Shown here: piece after piece, positions 50,899-56,756 of the stretch
Numbering within the stretch: the stretch's first letter is position 1
Layout of the letters: each line of letters begins with the position of its first letter
NCBI RefSeq assembly: GCF_921294215.1
Contig: NZ_CAKLDM010000002.1
Coordinates: 434,001 to 498,000 of the forward strand
Reading direction: 5' to 3'
DNA from: Vibrio marisflavi CECT 7928
Lineage (GTDB): Bacteria > Pseudomonadota > Gammaproteobacteria > Enterobacterales > Vibrionaceae
DNA length: 64,000 nt
Made by a program: the position numbers and the translations under genes
The notes under the pieces: model-generated
Told to the model about the DNA's origin: nothing
Databases searched by the model: none
Seen by the model: only the letters and a program-made list of their open reading frames with translations

Positions 50899-51813
50899 TT
50901 ATTGAGAATGGTGTAATAAATTTTTGAGTGCAGGCTCTAATCTAGAGAAATTGAACTGGAAGCCAAGTTCAGTCAGTTTCTTAGGTTTGGCTCTGGCACT
51001 ATCAAAAAGTAATACCGAACTTTCTCCCAATGCAAGTTTAAGCACCCATTTAGGGGTGAACAAAAAATGAGGTCGCTTTAGAGACTTAGCTAGCTGTTTA
51101 CTGAAATGTTTATTGGTGACAGGGTGAGGAGCACACAAGTTGAATTCACCATGAGCGTGTGGAGTTTTTAGTAGGTAAAGAATACCTCGAATCATGTCTT
51201 GGATATGAATCCAAGGCATATACTGCTGTCCACTGCCAATTGGACCTCCCAAGCCAAGTCGATATGGTGGTAGCATTTTCTTCATTGCTCCACCATCGGC
51301 TTTCAGCACTATTCCTGTCCTTAGCAGGCAGACTCTAGTCGTATCCGTACGGGCTCTTTTAGCTATTTGTTCCCATGTTGAGCAGACTAAATGTGGGAAC
51401 TTTGGTTGGTTGACGTGCAAGCTCTCATCGAATGGGTGGGACTCCTGATTTCCGTAATAACCAACTGCAGAGCCACTAATAAAAACTGAAGGTGGCTGGG
51501 CACTTGCGTGGATAAGGTCAACAATCTTTTCTGTCGTTTCCCAGCGGCTATTGCATATTACTTCTTTTTGCTTTCTGCTCCACCGTCTGTCTACGATAGG
51601 TTCTCCAGCAAGGTTTATAACGGCATCGAAACCATTCAGATCAAGCAATTCCGACAAAGAAGAGATGTAGTGAATATTCCCGTGATCGATATGTTTTAAG
51701 GCTTCCTTAGCCCGCTGAATATTGCGAGTAAGCAATACAACGTCATAAGTTGTAAAGTGCTTCATAAGCTCTCTACCAATAAAGCCTGTTCCGCCTGTTA
51801 TTAGTATTTTCAT
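50899..51813 (-). CDS. TIGR01777-family epimerase-like protein (YfcH type)
   Basis: A 304-residue extended-SDR protein with the N-terminal KILITGGTGFIGREL, NLAGEPIVDRRW, and a C-terminal DUF1731 domain (about 240-295). The ATG at 51813 has AAGGGAA upstream and puts the Rossmann motif at the very N terminus; the frame runs back to 51867. Substrate unknown. Confidence 0.88.
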   Translation of the reverse strand: MKILITGGTGFIGRELMKHFTTYDVVLLTRNIQRAKEALKHIDHGNIHYISSLSELLDLNGFDAVINLAGEPIVDRRWSRKQKEVICNSRWETTEKIVDLIHASAQPPSVFISGSAVGYYGNQESHPFDESLHVNQPKFPHLVCSTWEQIAKRARTDTTRVCLLRTGIVLKADGGAMKKMLPPYRLGLGGPIGSGQQYMPWIHIQDMIRGILYLLKTPHAHGEFNLCAPHPVTNKHFSKQLAKSLKRPHFLFTPKWVLKLALGESSVLLFDSARAKPKKLTELGFQFNFSRLEPALKNLLHHSQ

Positions 51814-51947
51814 TCTTATTCCCTTGCTTGTGATAACAGTATAGCAATACCAATCCGAGGTGAGCATACGTGCTTGCGCAAAATATCACTAGCAAAGCTT
51901 TATTAGTGCGGTCTGATTCAAAACCAGGATCTAAAAATTCGTCTATT

Positions 51948-51976: not shown

Positions 51977-51994
51977 ACGAGATGCGGAGTGGAT

Positions 51995-52726
51995 ATGGAA
52001 GCACTGACAGCACTATTGAAATCCTTATTTAGTAGTGTCAGAGATCTATTACCTATTGCACTCGTCGTGGTGTTCTTCCAAGTTATCATCTTGCAAAATC
52101 CGATGCCAAATATGGCATCCATCTTAGTTGGCTTTTGTTTGGTCATTTTGGGCCTAACCATTTTTATCTATGGATTAGAAATGGGGCTTTTTCCAATTGG
52201 GGAGTCGATGGCACAATCATTTGCTAGAAAAGGCAGCTTCTTTTGGCTAATGGTTTTCTCTTTTTGTCTTGGTTTTGGCACCACTATTGCGGAGCCTGCG
52301 TTAACCGCAGTCGCTGACGAAGCAGCAGAAGTTGCAGCGGAAGGCGGCGTTATTCCTCACAACCTTGAAGAAATGGAAGAGTATGCTGACGGGTTAAGGC
52401 TGACCGTTGCTCTGTCTGTTGGCGTGGCTATTATGTTGGGCGTTTTACGTATTCTCAAGGGTTGGCCCATTCACTATCTCATCATTGCAGGTTATGTAGG
52501 AGTCGTGATCCTCACAGGCTTTGCTCCTGATAGCATCATTGGCGTGGCATATGACTCGGGAGGCGTGACGACTTCAACAATTACAGTTCCATTGGTTACT
52601 GCTCTTGGTGTTGGTTTGGCGTCGGCAATTAAAGGGCGAAACCCGATGATAGATGGCTTTGGCCTGATTGCGTTTGCGTCTCTGCTGCCCGTTTTGTTCG
52701 TAATGATTTATGGGATGCTAATTTGA
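51995..52726 (+). CDS. DUF1538 membrane protein, subunit A
   Basis: A 243-residue integral membrane protein with six or seven hydrophobic segments. Two conserved blocks stand out: TTIAEPALTAVA (96-107) after helix 3, and YDSGGVTTSTITVPLV (186-201) followed by KGRNPMIDGFGLIAFASL (213-230). These small-residue, Ser/Thr-rich re-entrant-looking motifs resemble ion-path sequences. The function of DUF1538 is not established to my knowledge. The ATG at 51995 is 5 bases from GGAG. The next gene, a paralogue, overlaps its stop by one base. Confidence 0.85.
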   Translation: MEALTALLKSLFSSVRDLLPIALVVVFFQVIILQNPMPNMASILVGFCLVILGLTIFIYGLEMGLFPIGESMAQSFARKGSFFWLMVFSFCLGFGTTIAEPALTAVADEAAEVAAEGGVIPHNLEEMEEYADGLRLTVALSVGVAIMLGVLRILKGWPIHYLIIAGYVGVVILTGFAPDSIIGVAYDSGGVTTSTITVPLVTALGVGLASAIKGRNPMIDGFGLIAFASLLPVLFVMIYGMLI

Positions 52727-53496
52727 TGATTACGTTTGCTCAAATTATCGATATGTTTTTGAGCACTGCTCGGGATGTCATCCCCATTACTGTCATCATC
52801 TTTGGCTTTCAATTTGCAGTGTTACGTCAGTCTGTGACCAATCTAGCTAAGGTTTGTGCTGGGTTTGTCTGTGTGCTGGTGGGCTTATCGCTGTTTTTGT
52901 TAGGGCTTGAACTCGCGTTGTTTCCGCTTGGTGAAACCATGGCCCAGCAGCTCACTGCATCAGAATTTTTACATCAGTTCAGCTTAACAGACTCCATCAA
53001 ACTGACTTGGGTTGATTACTACTGGGTTTATCTATTTGCTTTCTGTATTGGCTTTAGCACAACGGTGGCTGAGCCATCTCTGATTGCTGTAGCGATTAAA
53101 GCTAACCAAGTGTCTGGCGGGAGCATAAGCGTCAATGGTTTACGTTTTGCTGTTGCTTTAGGTGTTGCGGTTGGCATTTCTTTGGGAAGTTATCGAATCG
53201 TAGTTGGAGACCCAATCCATTACTACATTATTTTTGGTTACATTGTGGTCATCATTCAAACTTACTATGCGCCCAAAATGATTGTGCCTTTGGCTTACGA
53301 TTCTGGGGGAGTTACCACTTCAACGGTGACCGTCCCTCTGGTTGCAGCATTGGGGCTAGGGCTTGCGTCCACAGTACCTGGTAGGAACCCACTGATTGAT
53401 GGCTTTGGATTGATCGCTTTTGCCAGTTTGTTTCCCATGATTTCTGTTTTGGGATATGCCCAAATCACGCAACGGATAAACAAAGAAACGTCGTGA
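52726..53496 (+). CDS. DUF1538 membrane protein, subunit B
   Basis: A 256-residue paralogue of the preceding gene with the same plan: TTVAEPSLIAVA (112-123), YDSGGVTTSTVTVPLV (191-206) and GRNPLIDGFGLIAFASL (219-235). It differs mainly in the loop at about 78-98. The ATG overlaps the upstream stop as TGATG, so translation is coupled and a hetero-oligomer is likely. The PII-like gene follows after 15 bases. Confidence 0.85.
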   Translation: MITFAQIIDMFLSTARDVIPITVIIFGFQFAVLRQSVTNLAKVCAGFVCVLVGLSLFLLGLELALFPLGETMAQQLTASEFLHQFSLTDSIKLTWVDYYWVYLFAFCIGFSTTVAEPSLIAVAIKANQVSGGSISVNGLRFAVALGVAVGISLGSYRIVVGDPIHYYIIFGYIVVIIQTYYAPKMIVPLAYDSGGVTTSTVTVPLVAALGLGLASTVPGRNPLIDGFGLIAFASLFPMISVLGYAQITQRINKETS

Positions 53497-53511
53497 AAAT
53501 AGGAGAAGACA

Positions 53512-53862
53512 ATGCGCTTTAAACTAATACTCGCGTTTGTAGAAGACAGTAAGACTTCAGCGGTGCTTGACGCCGCGCGTGAAGCTGGTGCCACTGGTGC
53601 CACAGTAATAAACAATGCCAGAGGGCAGGGGCTCAAAGAAAAACGTACTTTTTTTGGCCTAACTTTGGAAGTGCAAAAAGATGTGTTGTTGTTCGTTGTC
53701 GAAGAACATTTAGCGAGACAAATTTTAGAAAAGATTAGTGAGGTTGGTGAGTTTGATAACTCCCCCGGGCAAGGTATCGCGGTACAGATCGATGTTGAAG
53801 ATGCCGTGGGCGTAGCCCATCAAGTGGAAACATTAACTAAAGTGGTTGAGGAAAACATATGA
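53512..53862 (+). CDS. PII-like signalling protein
   Basis: A 116-residue protein of the PII fold: the first beta-alpha-beta with GATGATVI (26-33), a shortened T-loop region (37-52, GQGLKEKRTFFG), the second beta-alpha-beta with DVLLFVVEEHLARQILEKI (57-75) and GQGIAVQIDVEDAVGV (86-101). The uridylylated Tyr51 of GlnB is absent, so GlnD control is not expected. PII proteins bind ATP or ADP and often gate a membrane partner; here the partner would be the DUF1538 pair. The stop overlaps the next start (ATGA). Confidence 0.85.
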   Translation: MRFKLILAFVEDSKTSAVLDAAREAGATGATVINNARGQGLKEKRTFFGLTLEVQKDVLLFVVEEHLARQILEKISEVGEFDNSPGQGIAVQIDVEDAVGVAHQVETLTKVVEENI

Positions 53863-54260
53863 ATCAGCGAGACAAAGTTCGTGTTCGAGATGTGATGTCT
53901 AGCACTTATGTTGTTATAGATGGTTTAACAACGGTACAAGAAGGTATTACCTTAGCTCGGGAGCATCAACTGAAAGCGTTGATAGTGGATAAACGACATG
54001 AAGACGATGAGTACGGTATCGTACTAATGAATGATATTGCCAAAAAGGTATTGGCAAAAAACCGCTCGCCGGAAAGAACCAATATTTATGAAATTATGAC
54101 CAAGCCTGCGCTGTCGGTTGACCCAGATATGAACGTGAAATATTGCGCTCGCCTATTTGAAAGATTTGGTATTAGCCGTGCACCCGTAATAGATCATGGC
54201 AAAGTTATCGGTATGGTGAGTTACAATAATATTGTTATTAACGGTATGGCGAGAGGGTAA
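53859..54260 (+). CDS. Two-CBS-domain protein
   Basis: A 133-residue protein made almost entirely of a CBS pair: the first CBS from VRDVMSSTYVVIDGLTT (about 7-65), the second from YEIMTKPALSVDPDMN (about 72-130). CBS pairs bind adenosine nucleotides. Start overlaps the PII-like stop by 4 bases, the tightest coupling in the operon. No catalytic domain is attached, so it is a sensor or regulatory subunit. Confidence 0.88.
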   Translation: MNQRDKVRVRDVMSSTYVVIDGLTTVQEGITLAREHQLKALIVDKRHEDDEYGIVLMNDIAKKVLAKNRSPERTNIYEIMTKPALSVDPDMNVKYCARLFERFGISRAPVIDHGKVIGMVSYNNIVINGMARG

Positions 54261-54309: not shown

Positions 54310-54861
54310 ATGAACGCTATATTTTTTGCAGCAGATATTCATGGTAGCTTGCCAGCAGCGACCAAATTGCTTAGCGCATTTGAAGCGTCGGGAGCGAGTC
54401 AACTAGTACTTTTAGGTGATATTTTAAATCATGGTCCAAGGAACTCTGTTCCAGTAGGTTACGATCCAGCTGAAGTAGCCAACAAACTCAATGAATACTC
54501 TGATCGCATTATTGCAGTAAGAGGGAATTGTGACAGTGAAGTCGACCAAATGCTGTTAGATTTTCCTATGATGGTAGATTATTCATGGTTGTTGCTAGAA
54601 TCCGGCAAAAGAATGTTCATTACGCATGGGCATATCTACAATATGGACAACCGTCCAAAGCTGGCTGAAGGCGATATTTTGGTATGTGGGCACACACATA
54701 TTCCAGTCGCAGAGAGATACCATGATATTTATGTTATTAACCCCGGTTCAATTACTTTCCCTCGAGGTTACTCGAAAGCCAGTTATGCAATTTATAGTCA
54801 GGGAGCTTTTAAGGTGATGTCTTTTGATGGAAAAGTGGTGTTATCCACGAATTGCAATTAA
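54310..54861 (+). CDS. yfcE: YfcE-type phosphodiesterase
   Basis: A 183-residue metallophosphoesterase with the metal motifs AADIHGS, LLGDILNHGP, RGNCDSEVD, THGH and CGHTHIP. E. coli YfcE hydrolyses phosphodiesters in vitro; the natural substrate is unknown. It begins 49 bases after the CBS gene on the same strand and ends overlapping the SelW-like gene by 4 bases, tail to tail. Confidence 0.92.
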   Translation: MNAIFFAADIHGSLPAATKLLSAFEASGASQLVLLGDILNHGPRNSVPVGYDPAEVANKLNEYSDRIIAVRGNCDSEVDQMLLDFPMMVDYSWLLLESGKRMFITHGHIYNMDNRPKLAEGDILVCGHTHIPVAERYHDIYVINPGSITFPRGYSKASYAIYSQGAFKVMSFDGKVVLSTNCN

Positions 54862-55202: not shown

Positions 55203-55727
55203 TTAGTCAGTAGATAATAGTGTTGAGCCATGCCCTAAGCTGGTTAGAAGCAAGGTTTTGCTGTTTACTACGTCGATGCGGCGGCTCTGTTGAGAATCCA
55301 TACGAATCAACTGAGTAATTAAATGAATTTGCTTCTCTGTGAACTCATTAGTTTCTGCTGACGTCACATCTTTAAACTCTTGCGGAGAAACGATTAAGTA
55401 GTCGTCACTAATACTCCACTTTCCAGATTCAGAGATATTAATAACATTTGTCAGCACCACTTTGCCTTTTTCTTTAGCGTAAAGTCTAACCACAGAAGAG
55501 CGGATATAGGTACCATTGGGCAGATACTTCACATTCGCGATCAATGTTCCCTTTTTAACCGGGCCGACAGCTTCTTCTGGCATTTGTGTATCAATCACAG
55601 TCACCATGTTGCTCTGCCATTCTTGCGAAGTTAGGATTTGCTCAACTTTGAGATCGCTTCCCCAGTACAGCCATCCACTGAACAGGATAGAAAGACCCAA
55701 TAAACCCGCTGCTATTTTTGTATTCAT
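55203..55727 (-). CDS. toxS: ToxR-stabilising protein ToxS
   Basis: A 174-residue membrane protein with a single N-terminal transmembrane helix (about 5-24) and a periplasmic domain; ToxS binds the ToxR periplasmic domain and protects it from proteolysis. Conserved portions are GKWSISDDYLIVSPQEFKDV and the C-terminal SLGHGSTLLSTD. The ATG at 55727 has GGAGAAGAG upstream; 16 bases separate it from toxR. Confidence 0.93.
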   Translation of the reverse strand: MNTKIAAGLLGLSILFSGWLYWGSDLKVEQILTSQEWQSNMVTVIDTQMPEEAVGPVKKGTLIANVKYLPNGTYIRSSVVRLYAKEKGKVVLTNVINISESGKWSISDDYLIVSPQEFKDVTSAETNEFTEKQIHLITQLIRMDSQQSRRIDVVNSKTLLLTSLGHGSTLLSTD

Positions 55728-55743
55728 TGTTCTCTTCTCCAAC

Positions 55744-56601
55744 TCAGTGACTGCAGACGTTGCTTAGGTCTTTTTGATTAGCAAAAATTCGCACCGTTAC
55801 ATTTTGGTCAGAATGCTTAAGCGAATGGATGTAGTTCAGCACTAGTTGATTATCTTGTCCGCCAGTCGTGATGACTTCTTGCAGAGATGAGTCTGCATTG
55901 TTCGTTTTAATATATTCTTGAACGCATTGTTTTATAGACGGTACCCACTTATCAATTGGAGGGTGGTCTGCAAATGTAAGCACAGGTACTTTATCTATCG
56001 TTGCTAAGCTAACAAATCTTGAATCAGCTGGTTTGGTAAACAGAACCACAATCAAAGGAATGATAACAGCCAATAGAAGCATAACAGCGGCAGGCTTGCT
56101 CAGCTTTGCTCGTGGTGCTGATGGCGCTACTGGAGTAGAGGTCGGTGCGTCGCTATTTAGCTGGGGTGATGCACTTGTTACATCCGGAGCAATTTCACTA
56201 ACCTCATGGCAGCTAGTATTCTCTTCAGTCTCGACACTATCATTGGCCAAAAGTGGTGTTGTTCTTTCCACACTGCATATAAGTTGGTAGCCGCGTTTTG
56301 GAACCGTTTTGACAAAAATGGGCGACTTGGTCGAGTCTTTGAGCATTTTTCGTAGGGTCGAGATTGCTTGAGTTAAGCTTGAATCATCCACTTCAAAGCC
56401 TTGCTCTCGCCATACAAATTCGTGTAATTCGTTACGAGAAATAACCTCATTTGGACGCTCGGCAAGTAACAAAAGTATGCGACTTTCGTTGCTACCTAAA
56501 CGGATAGTCTCATCACCGTTAGCTTGGTCGACCAGAGAGTTATTATTAGGATCAAAAGTAAATCGATTATCTAGAATAAACTTAGTACCAATATTGCTCA
56601 T
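55744..56601 (-). CDS. toxR: Membrane-bound transcription activator ToxR
   Basis: A 285-residue inner-membrane regulator of porins and, in pathogens, virulence genes. OmpR-type winged helix (about 5-112, with SNESRILLLLAERPNEVISR and the wing FVKTVPKRGYQLI), a variable Pro/Ser/Thr tether (113-167), a transmembrane helix (171-188) and a periplasmic domain with the disulfide pair Cys226 and Cys283. The ATG at 56601 was chosen over upstream frame to 56709, which adds non-conserved sequence. Divergent from htpG. Confidence 0.96.
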   Translation of the reverse strand: MSNIGTKFILDNRFTFDPNNNSLVDQANGDETIRLGSNESRILLLLAERPNEVISRNELHEFVWREQGFEVDDSSLTQAISTLRKMLKDSTKSPIFVKTVPKRGYQLICSVERTTPLLANDSVETEENTSCHEVSEIAPDVTSASPQLNSDAPTSTPVAPSAPRAKLSKPAAVMLLLAVIIPLIVVLFTKPADSRFVSLATIDKVPVLTFADHPPIDKWVPSIKQCVQEYIKTNNADSSLQEVITTGGQDNQLVLNYIHSLKHSDQNVTVRIFANQKDLSNVCSH

Positions 56602-56756
56602 TGAATTCTTCTTTATTAGCCTACTTTTTAGCCGAAACCTTATCTCAGTGTCCGTACCAAGCGTTCGTTCGTCAAGTTTTAGATTATTTGATAATATTTT
56701 AAACGCCAAGAATAATAAAAATAAATCAAAAAAACACTGTTTTTATGCTTTTTGAC

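Follow-up and report, generated by a model that had tools for sequence, protein, structure and literature searches.

A conserved pairing of DUF1538 membrane proteins with PII-like and CBS genes in Vibrio marisflavi: a candidate sensor-gated cation/proton antiporter

What do two related membrane proteins do in the company of two small soluble proteins, one with a PII fold and the other a stand-alone CBS pair? This question is raised by four consecutive genes in a 64,000-nucleotide stretch of Vibrio marisflavi CECT 7928 (contig NZ_CAKLDM010000002.1, positions 434,001 to 498,000), which we call the window and within which coordinates are numbered. The answer that we favor, with moderate confidence, is that their products would work as one regulated transport machine, a cation/proton antiporter gated by PII and equipped with a second sensor of adenylate type. 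The operon contains the following features:

51995..52726, plus strand: UmpA-like DUF1538 membrane protein, 243 amino acids, ATG start, GGAG at 51986-51989 (PF07556, NF041627)
52726..53496, plus strand: UmpB-like DUF1538 membrane protein, 256 amino acids (PF07556, NF041628)
53501..53506, plus strand: AGGAGA, read from the sequence as the likely ribosome-binding site for the PII gene
53512..53862, plus strand: PII-like signalling protein with a PII fold, 116 amino acids (PF00543)
53859..54260, plus strand: stand-alone CBS pair, 133 amino acids (PF00571, two stretches)

The original prediction, made from the sequence alone, had these genes joined by a 1-base overlap, a 15-base gap and a 4-base overlap, and the sequence and its translations agree: the umpA stop and the umpB start share base 52726, the gap between umpB and the PII gene spans 53497-53511, and the PII stop and CBS start overlap by 4 bases. 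The best named matches of the operon proteins are mostly from Vibrio.

Linkage of DUF1538 with a PII subfamily

The linkage of this PII subfamily to DUF1538 is near-constant, and the evidence for it is strong. In a first set of 29 loci other than our own, fetched by best score, an open reading frame (ORF) for a PII protein followed the DUF1538 gene or genes in every case (29/29). A scan of named genomes gave at least 586 confirmed places, of which the best 80, a set leaning to close relatives, were kept; PII and then CBS followed on the same strand in all 76 of these 80 with at least 1 kb of sequence downstream, while the other four comprised two with PII and CBS, one with PII only and one with neither. 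To look beyond close relatives, we considered the window's class, where UmpA-type matches were found in 126 of 369 genomes and 99 of 272 genera, and fetched 117 loci from the phylum, 101 of them from 100 of the 126 UmpA-positive class genomes and 16 from a phylum sample (the omitted ones were chiefly duplicates within a genus, contig ends and matches without a listed place). Of the 112 with at least 1 kb downstream, 110 have PII at the locus, and 107 have it within 800 bp, 17 of these without CBS. In the remaining three of the 110, PII and CBS lie elsewhere, namely further downstream (L127), before the transporter (L207) and between two transporter copies (L209). No PII was found nearby in L197 and L218; the former holds a lone umpA, and the same genome has umpB-PII-CBS on another contig (L280). 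Among the five loci with less than 1 kb downstream, the same rule finds PII in three and not in two, one of which (L200) has PII elsewhere.

The reverse test, in which a model of the PII subfamily was run over the 369 class genomes, gave strong matches (E <= 1e-12, the next weaker match being at 2.5e-5) in 123. DUF1538 and PII occur together in 120 genomes, PII alone in 3, DUF1538 alone in 6 and neither in 240; a Fisher test on these counts takes no account of relatedness among the genomes, and its value is no true probability. Two of the PII-only genomes have the gene where a contig stops (L274, L276), and in the third it adjoins an umpB remnant (L275). Among the DUF1538-only genomes, three (G533, G620 and G677) have tripled-PII proteins instead, one (G581) has a weaker PII (L251), one (G575) has a match that the Pfam model did not confirm, and one (G667) is 72% complete. 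As a side observation, the only trace of umpB at L275:970-1326 is this short remnant, upstream of an intact PII gene and CBS gene.

The original prediction had proposed a search of DUF1538 neighbourhoods across genomes, and the conservation outside close relatives on which it depended was found across the class, in a second phylum and on two plasmids. In the phylum of L101, a Nitrospirae metagenome-assembled genome, DUF1538 occurs in 5 of 61 genomes, and the order A-B-PII-CBS is seen in L101 and in 4/4 newly fetched loci. Four plasmid records matched, from two species (of Methylocystis and Paraclostridium), and one of each was opened: the Methylocystis rosea plasmid (L268) carries two DUF1538 genes and PII, with no CBS, and that of Paraclostridium bifermentans (Bacillota) carries a fused DUF1538 protein and a double-PII protein. 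We also noted that one of the four new loci from the phylum of L101 has three consecutive DUF1538 genes, not two, before PII and CBS (L271:4558-6764), and that the Paraclostridium double-PII gene (L269:5494-6162) overlaps the end of the fused DUF1538 gene.

With starts set by the longest ORF, the 4-base overlap of the PII and CBS genes recurs in 134 of the 168 loci scored, which reads as a sign of coupled synthesis. The recurrence of order and strand far outside close relatives, together with this overlap, suggests an arrangement that is more than chance. Co-transcription by chance, with no functional link, can appeal to the commonness of short gaps in bacterial operons and to nothing more; it is contradicted by the matching presence and absence over 369 genomes and by the conserved order and overlap, and we regard it as extremely improbable. 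A promoter and terminator scan gave sites no more numerous than in shuffled sequence, and none is claimed.

The membrane pair

Both membrane proteins match PF07556 over its full length (238.4 bits and profile positions 1-211 of 211 for the UmpA-like protein, 229.6 bits and positions 1-210 for the UmpB-like protein; cut-off 22.6), which places them in DUF1538, and they are 51% identical to each other. They also match the NCBIfam models for UmpA (NF041627, 374.6 bits, cut-off 490) and UmpB (NF041628, 347.1 bits, cut-off 500) nearly from end to end; since these scores lie under the cut-offs we use the names UmpA-like and UmpB-like. The NF041627 cut-off is passed by none of the 369 class genomes. 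The eponymous DUF1538 pair, UmpAB of Halomonas zhaodongensis, was reported in 2017 to work as a heterodimer, a Na+(Li+,K+)/H+ antiporter of two components with seven helices predicted for each subunit (PMC5484666). Like it, the window pair consists of two homologous DUF1538 proteins, each with seven predicted helices, whose genes overlap by 1 base. The earlier description of two paralogous membrane proteins holds by their identity, and its "unknown function" does not, given the NCBIfam matches and the reported antiport. Similarly, the transporter half of "transporter or channel" stands, an antiporter being likelier than an undefined transporter or channel in view of the activity of the relative. 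We conclude that the pair probably exchanges sodium or potassium for protons, and would share the substrate of the Halomonas pair.

It might be argued that the same regulated module moves another physiological substrate, be it another cation or an anion, and that the Halomonas antiport is a side activity of overexpression in antiporter-less Escherichia coli. In the portions of the literature consulted, either Na+(Li+,K+)/H+ antiport or Na+(Li+)/H+ antiport is ascribed to several unrelated families (RDD, MFS, CDF and UPF0118), and UmpAB has neither a solved relative by sequence nor a confident fold relative among solved structures that would confirm an antiporter mechanism. However, the reported antiport is pH-dependent and extends to three cations (PMC5484666), and UmpAB homologs are listed under marine adaptation in the consulted parts of two papers on cable bacteria; we consider another substrate unlikely, though it is the most serious of the alternatives.

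The distribution of charged residues bears on how the two proteins sit in the membrane. In 146 of 152 UmpA/UmpB pairs the net positive charge of the N terminus of UmpA exceeds that of its first loop, the pattern is reversed in UmpB in 140, and both biases occur together in 135. This suggests that the N terminus of the window UmpA-like protein lies inside, and that the UmpB-like protein has its N terminus outside and its C terminus inside. The opposite biases and the seven predicted helices of each subunit suggest that UmpA and UmpB insert into the membrane in opposite orientations, as an inverted 7+7 antiporter would. Natural A-B fusions fit this arrangement. The structure model of a fused DUF1538 protein is confident (predicted local distance difference test, pLDDT, 89.4; predicted template modelling score, pTM, 0.89), with no convincing counterpart among solved structures. 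The words topology, inverted and antiparallel are absent from the main text of the Halomonas report (PMC5484666). The DUF1538 membrane part may represent a fold without a solved relative; the sodium-calcium exchanger (CaCA) fold, considered by structure and by homology to its alpha-repeat sequence, is at best a tentative relative. Separately, six metagenomic A-B fusions of 401-445 amino acids were seen among the UmpB relatives (P0125, P0126, P0127, P0129, P0131 and P0210), their N-terminal part being absent in alignment A4.

The sensor proteins and the edge of the module

The PII-like protein scores 43.6 bits against PF00543 (cut-off 25), and this match and its PII fold place it in the PII superfamily. 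Canonical GlnB/GlnK proteins carry Tyr51 in the T-loop and phosphate-binding Lys90, Arg101 and Arg103, and GlnK is a nitrogen PII that is uridylylated on Tyr51. The loop of the present subfamily is conserved as RGxGxxxx[KR]TFFGLxLExQ[KR]D, reading TFFGL with no Tyr; GlnB Lys90 aligns with I89 (82% I), Arg101 with G100 (100% G), and the position of Arg103, by extension of the alignment, is A102. By these features the protein is not a canonical GlnB/GlnK. Many records label the gene 'P-II family nitrogen regulator'. Neither is it SbtB, since the protein (P0003) has no cysteine at all and its gene neighbors DUF1538 rather than sbtA, nor PII-NG, its operon neighbors being DUF1538 and CBS genes with no CzcABC-type metal efflux genes. 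The CBS protein matches PF00571 in two stretches (64.9 bits, cut-off 24), which identifies it as a CBS pair, and its best solved relative by sequence is the CBS-CP12 structure 5nmu (E 8.4e-26).

The lost GlnB-type ATP-phosphate residues, and the existence of tripled PII proteins, could be taken to mean that PII and CBS have lost ligand sensing and serve as subunits for structure or assembly. Against this stand the conserved PII positions G26, G29, T31, R37-G38 and G86-x-G88, with TG..T and RG retained, and D59 of the CBS pair, conserved at 92%; we consider such a role very improbable.

DUF1538 and PII are usually accompanied by a second sensor-type gene. The 112 phylum loci with at least 1 kb downstream divide into 93 with CBS, 12 with a second or tripled PII, 5 with one PII only and the 2 with no PII nearby. 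CBS is absent from a divergent group whose UmpA and UmpB are joined in one protein of about 570-730 amino acids (the frame is broken in L242), and a second or tripled PII is found in 15/15 of these fused loci. In 12/12 divergent loci (L243-L247, L249-L252, L254-L256) a second PII-type gene follows the first, and in a profile comparison this second family matches the main PII family (probability 92.9%, E 3.6e-7, 98 columns). In L241, L242 and L248 a single PII-type protein of about 390 amino acids lies directly after the divergent DUF1538 gene. Its middle third scores as PII directly, while the N- and C-terminal thirds are too weak for single-sequence models; by profile comparison the middle (97.9%) and C-terminal (93.1%) thirds match the main PII family and the N-terminal third (87.9%) the second-PII family. 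Each of these proteins seems to combine three PII domains in a single polypeptide, which might form a pseudo-trimer. They are encoded at L241:5659-6813, L242:5087-6265 and L248:2986-4161. By eye, a gene resembling a response regulator follows PII in L212 and L213.

When the ORFs of 203 loci were clustered, DUF1538 was found in 203, PII in 184 by a cluster that does not take in the divergent PIIs, and CBS in 173, all on the transporter strand. The next family after CBS occurs in at most 23 loci, and 22 of the 23 holding the top one are Vibrionaceae by record title; a wider conserved module is therefore rejected. This bears on the possibility that the transporter is itself the sensor, with UmpAB sequestering PII and CBS at the membrane, and the proteins that these two really control being enzymes or regulators in solution elsewhere. 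There is precedent, in that AmtB also sequesters GlnK at the membrane. However, no other family recurs widely nearby, and PII stays with DUF1538 on plasmids too and where CBS is missing, which favors a local target; we consider remote targets improbable.

The genes flanking the operon in the window are:

50899-51867, left of the operon and divergently read: oxidoreductase gene
54310-54861, same strand as the CBS gene: YfcE-type phosphodiesterase, starting 49 bases after the CBS gene

The YfcE-type gene could be co-transcribed with the operon in the window; its same-strand family occurs in 15 of the 203 loci, all Vibrio or Photobacterium. Nearby, at 55203-56709, lie a winged-helix regulator and a small partner, which we take to resemble ToxR/ToxS; the regulator has NCBIfam matches below cut-off only, CadC being the best, and the partner has none. 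The operon had no match in an anti-phage library, and none of 78 pattern matches on viral contigs was confirmed as a relative.

Proposed mechanism and its meaning

In the reading that we favor, UmpA and UmpB would be, by homology, two inverted halves of a membrane antiporter exchanging Na+ and/or K+ (Li+) for H+. The PII-like protein would be its dedicated cytoplasmic gate, a trimer docking on the inner face through the conserved T-loop, and its opening or closing of transport would depend on the binding of a small ligand, for which an adenine nucleotide is the likeliest candidate. The CBS pair would be a second ligand sensor, acting in series with PII or setting its affinity for the transporter. 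Such a module could match cation/proton exchange to the energy state, for example by shutting a proton-consuming antiporter at low ATP, the direction being the one that we infer.

T-loop docking appears the likeliest mechanism by analogy with two systems. SbtA, the cyanobacterial Na+-dependent bicarbonate transporter, shares with UmpAB the link to Na+ and an operon with a PII-like protein, SbtB, and in the AMP-bound complex the T-loop is inserted and the tunnel exit partly blocked (consulted sections of PMC8352866); in contrast, UmpAB has no sequence match among solved structures, the window operon has a second sensor, and its cysteine-free PII has no CGPxGC hairpin, which only some SbtB proteins possess. 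AmtB and GlnK are likewise a linked transporter and PII gene, with blockage by the T-loop (PMC10710835, in part), but AmtB is an ammonium channel and the TFFGL loop of the window lacks the Tyr. A PII next to a proton/cation antiporter has its closest parallel in PII-NG, a non-canonical PII clustered with CzcABC in Geobacter and others (PMC7726332, citing Sant'Anna 2009); that system differs in serving metal efflux with another transporter family, and the consulted part of this source mentions no CBS partner. For the second sensor, nucleotide-binding CBS pairs control transport in MgtE, MpfA and the osmoregulated ABC importer (PMC10710835, in part), and the window CBS pair resembles CBS-CP12 in sequence; it differs from CBS-regulated transporters in being a separate protein whose gene overlaps the PII gene.

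Several points weigh against this reading. The membrane proteins are homologous to UmpA and UmpB but stay under the equivalog cut-offs. The cloned Halomonas fragment held four ORFs including umpAB, with no PII or CBS, and UmpAB therefore worked in E. coli without either; the main text of that report names neither (PMC5484666). UmpAB has no solved structural relative, as noted above, and the GlnB phosphate-binding residues are replaced. Locus L218 has no PII nearby, the PII-CBS genes of genome G426 are not preceded by DUF1538 within 1.5 kb (L277), and no second sensor was found in L188, L212, L213, L219, L240 and the plasmid locus L268, which have one PII each. In a covariation analysis of 149 quartets (effective number of sequences about 105) only A-B pairs stood out (best z 9.0 and 8.1); PII-membrane pairs reached z <=5.5, not above CBS-membrane pairs (<=6.7), and were not centered on the T-loop. 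The analysis is thus uninformative on contacts of PII or CBS with the membrane pair, supporting no site and disproving none.

The original prediction knew of no described function for this combination, and we likewise found no description of a pairing of DUF1538/UmpAB with PII or CBS in the open-licence literature searched; neither PII nor CBS is named in the main texts of three papers on UmpAB, and a review table of PII-regulated transporters, in the part consulted, does not name UmpAB (PMC10710835). Antiport by a DUF1538 pair has been reported before; the part that seems new is the conserved sensor coupling, a variant of PII-gated transport and no new category.

A broader proposal, which we put forward tentatively, as possible rather than probable, is that DUF1538 is the membrane part of a widespread, unrecognized class of energy-charge-gated cation/proton antiporters with their own PII subfamily. 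An inverted UmpA-UmpB heterodimer would be plugged by a PII trimer and carry a built-in second nucleotide sensor (the CBS pair or, in the divergent lineages, another PII or a tripled one), the two adenylate readings jointly setting Na+/K+ and pH homeostasis. PII proteins are known above all for sensing nitrogen, and only a few transporters have been studied as their partners. If the favored reading is true, ion and pH homeostasis would join the processes under PII control, through a PII subfamily coupled almost one-to-one to a Na+/K+/H+ antiporter. An antiporter that draws on the proton gradient ought to be restrained when energy is scarce, and this small, self-contained module would be a ready-made switch, offering a likely role for a PII gene now labelled as a nitrogen regulator and for its CBS neighbor.
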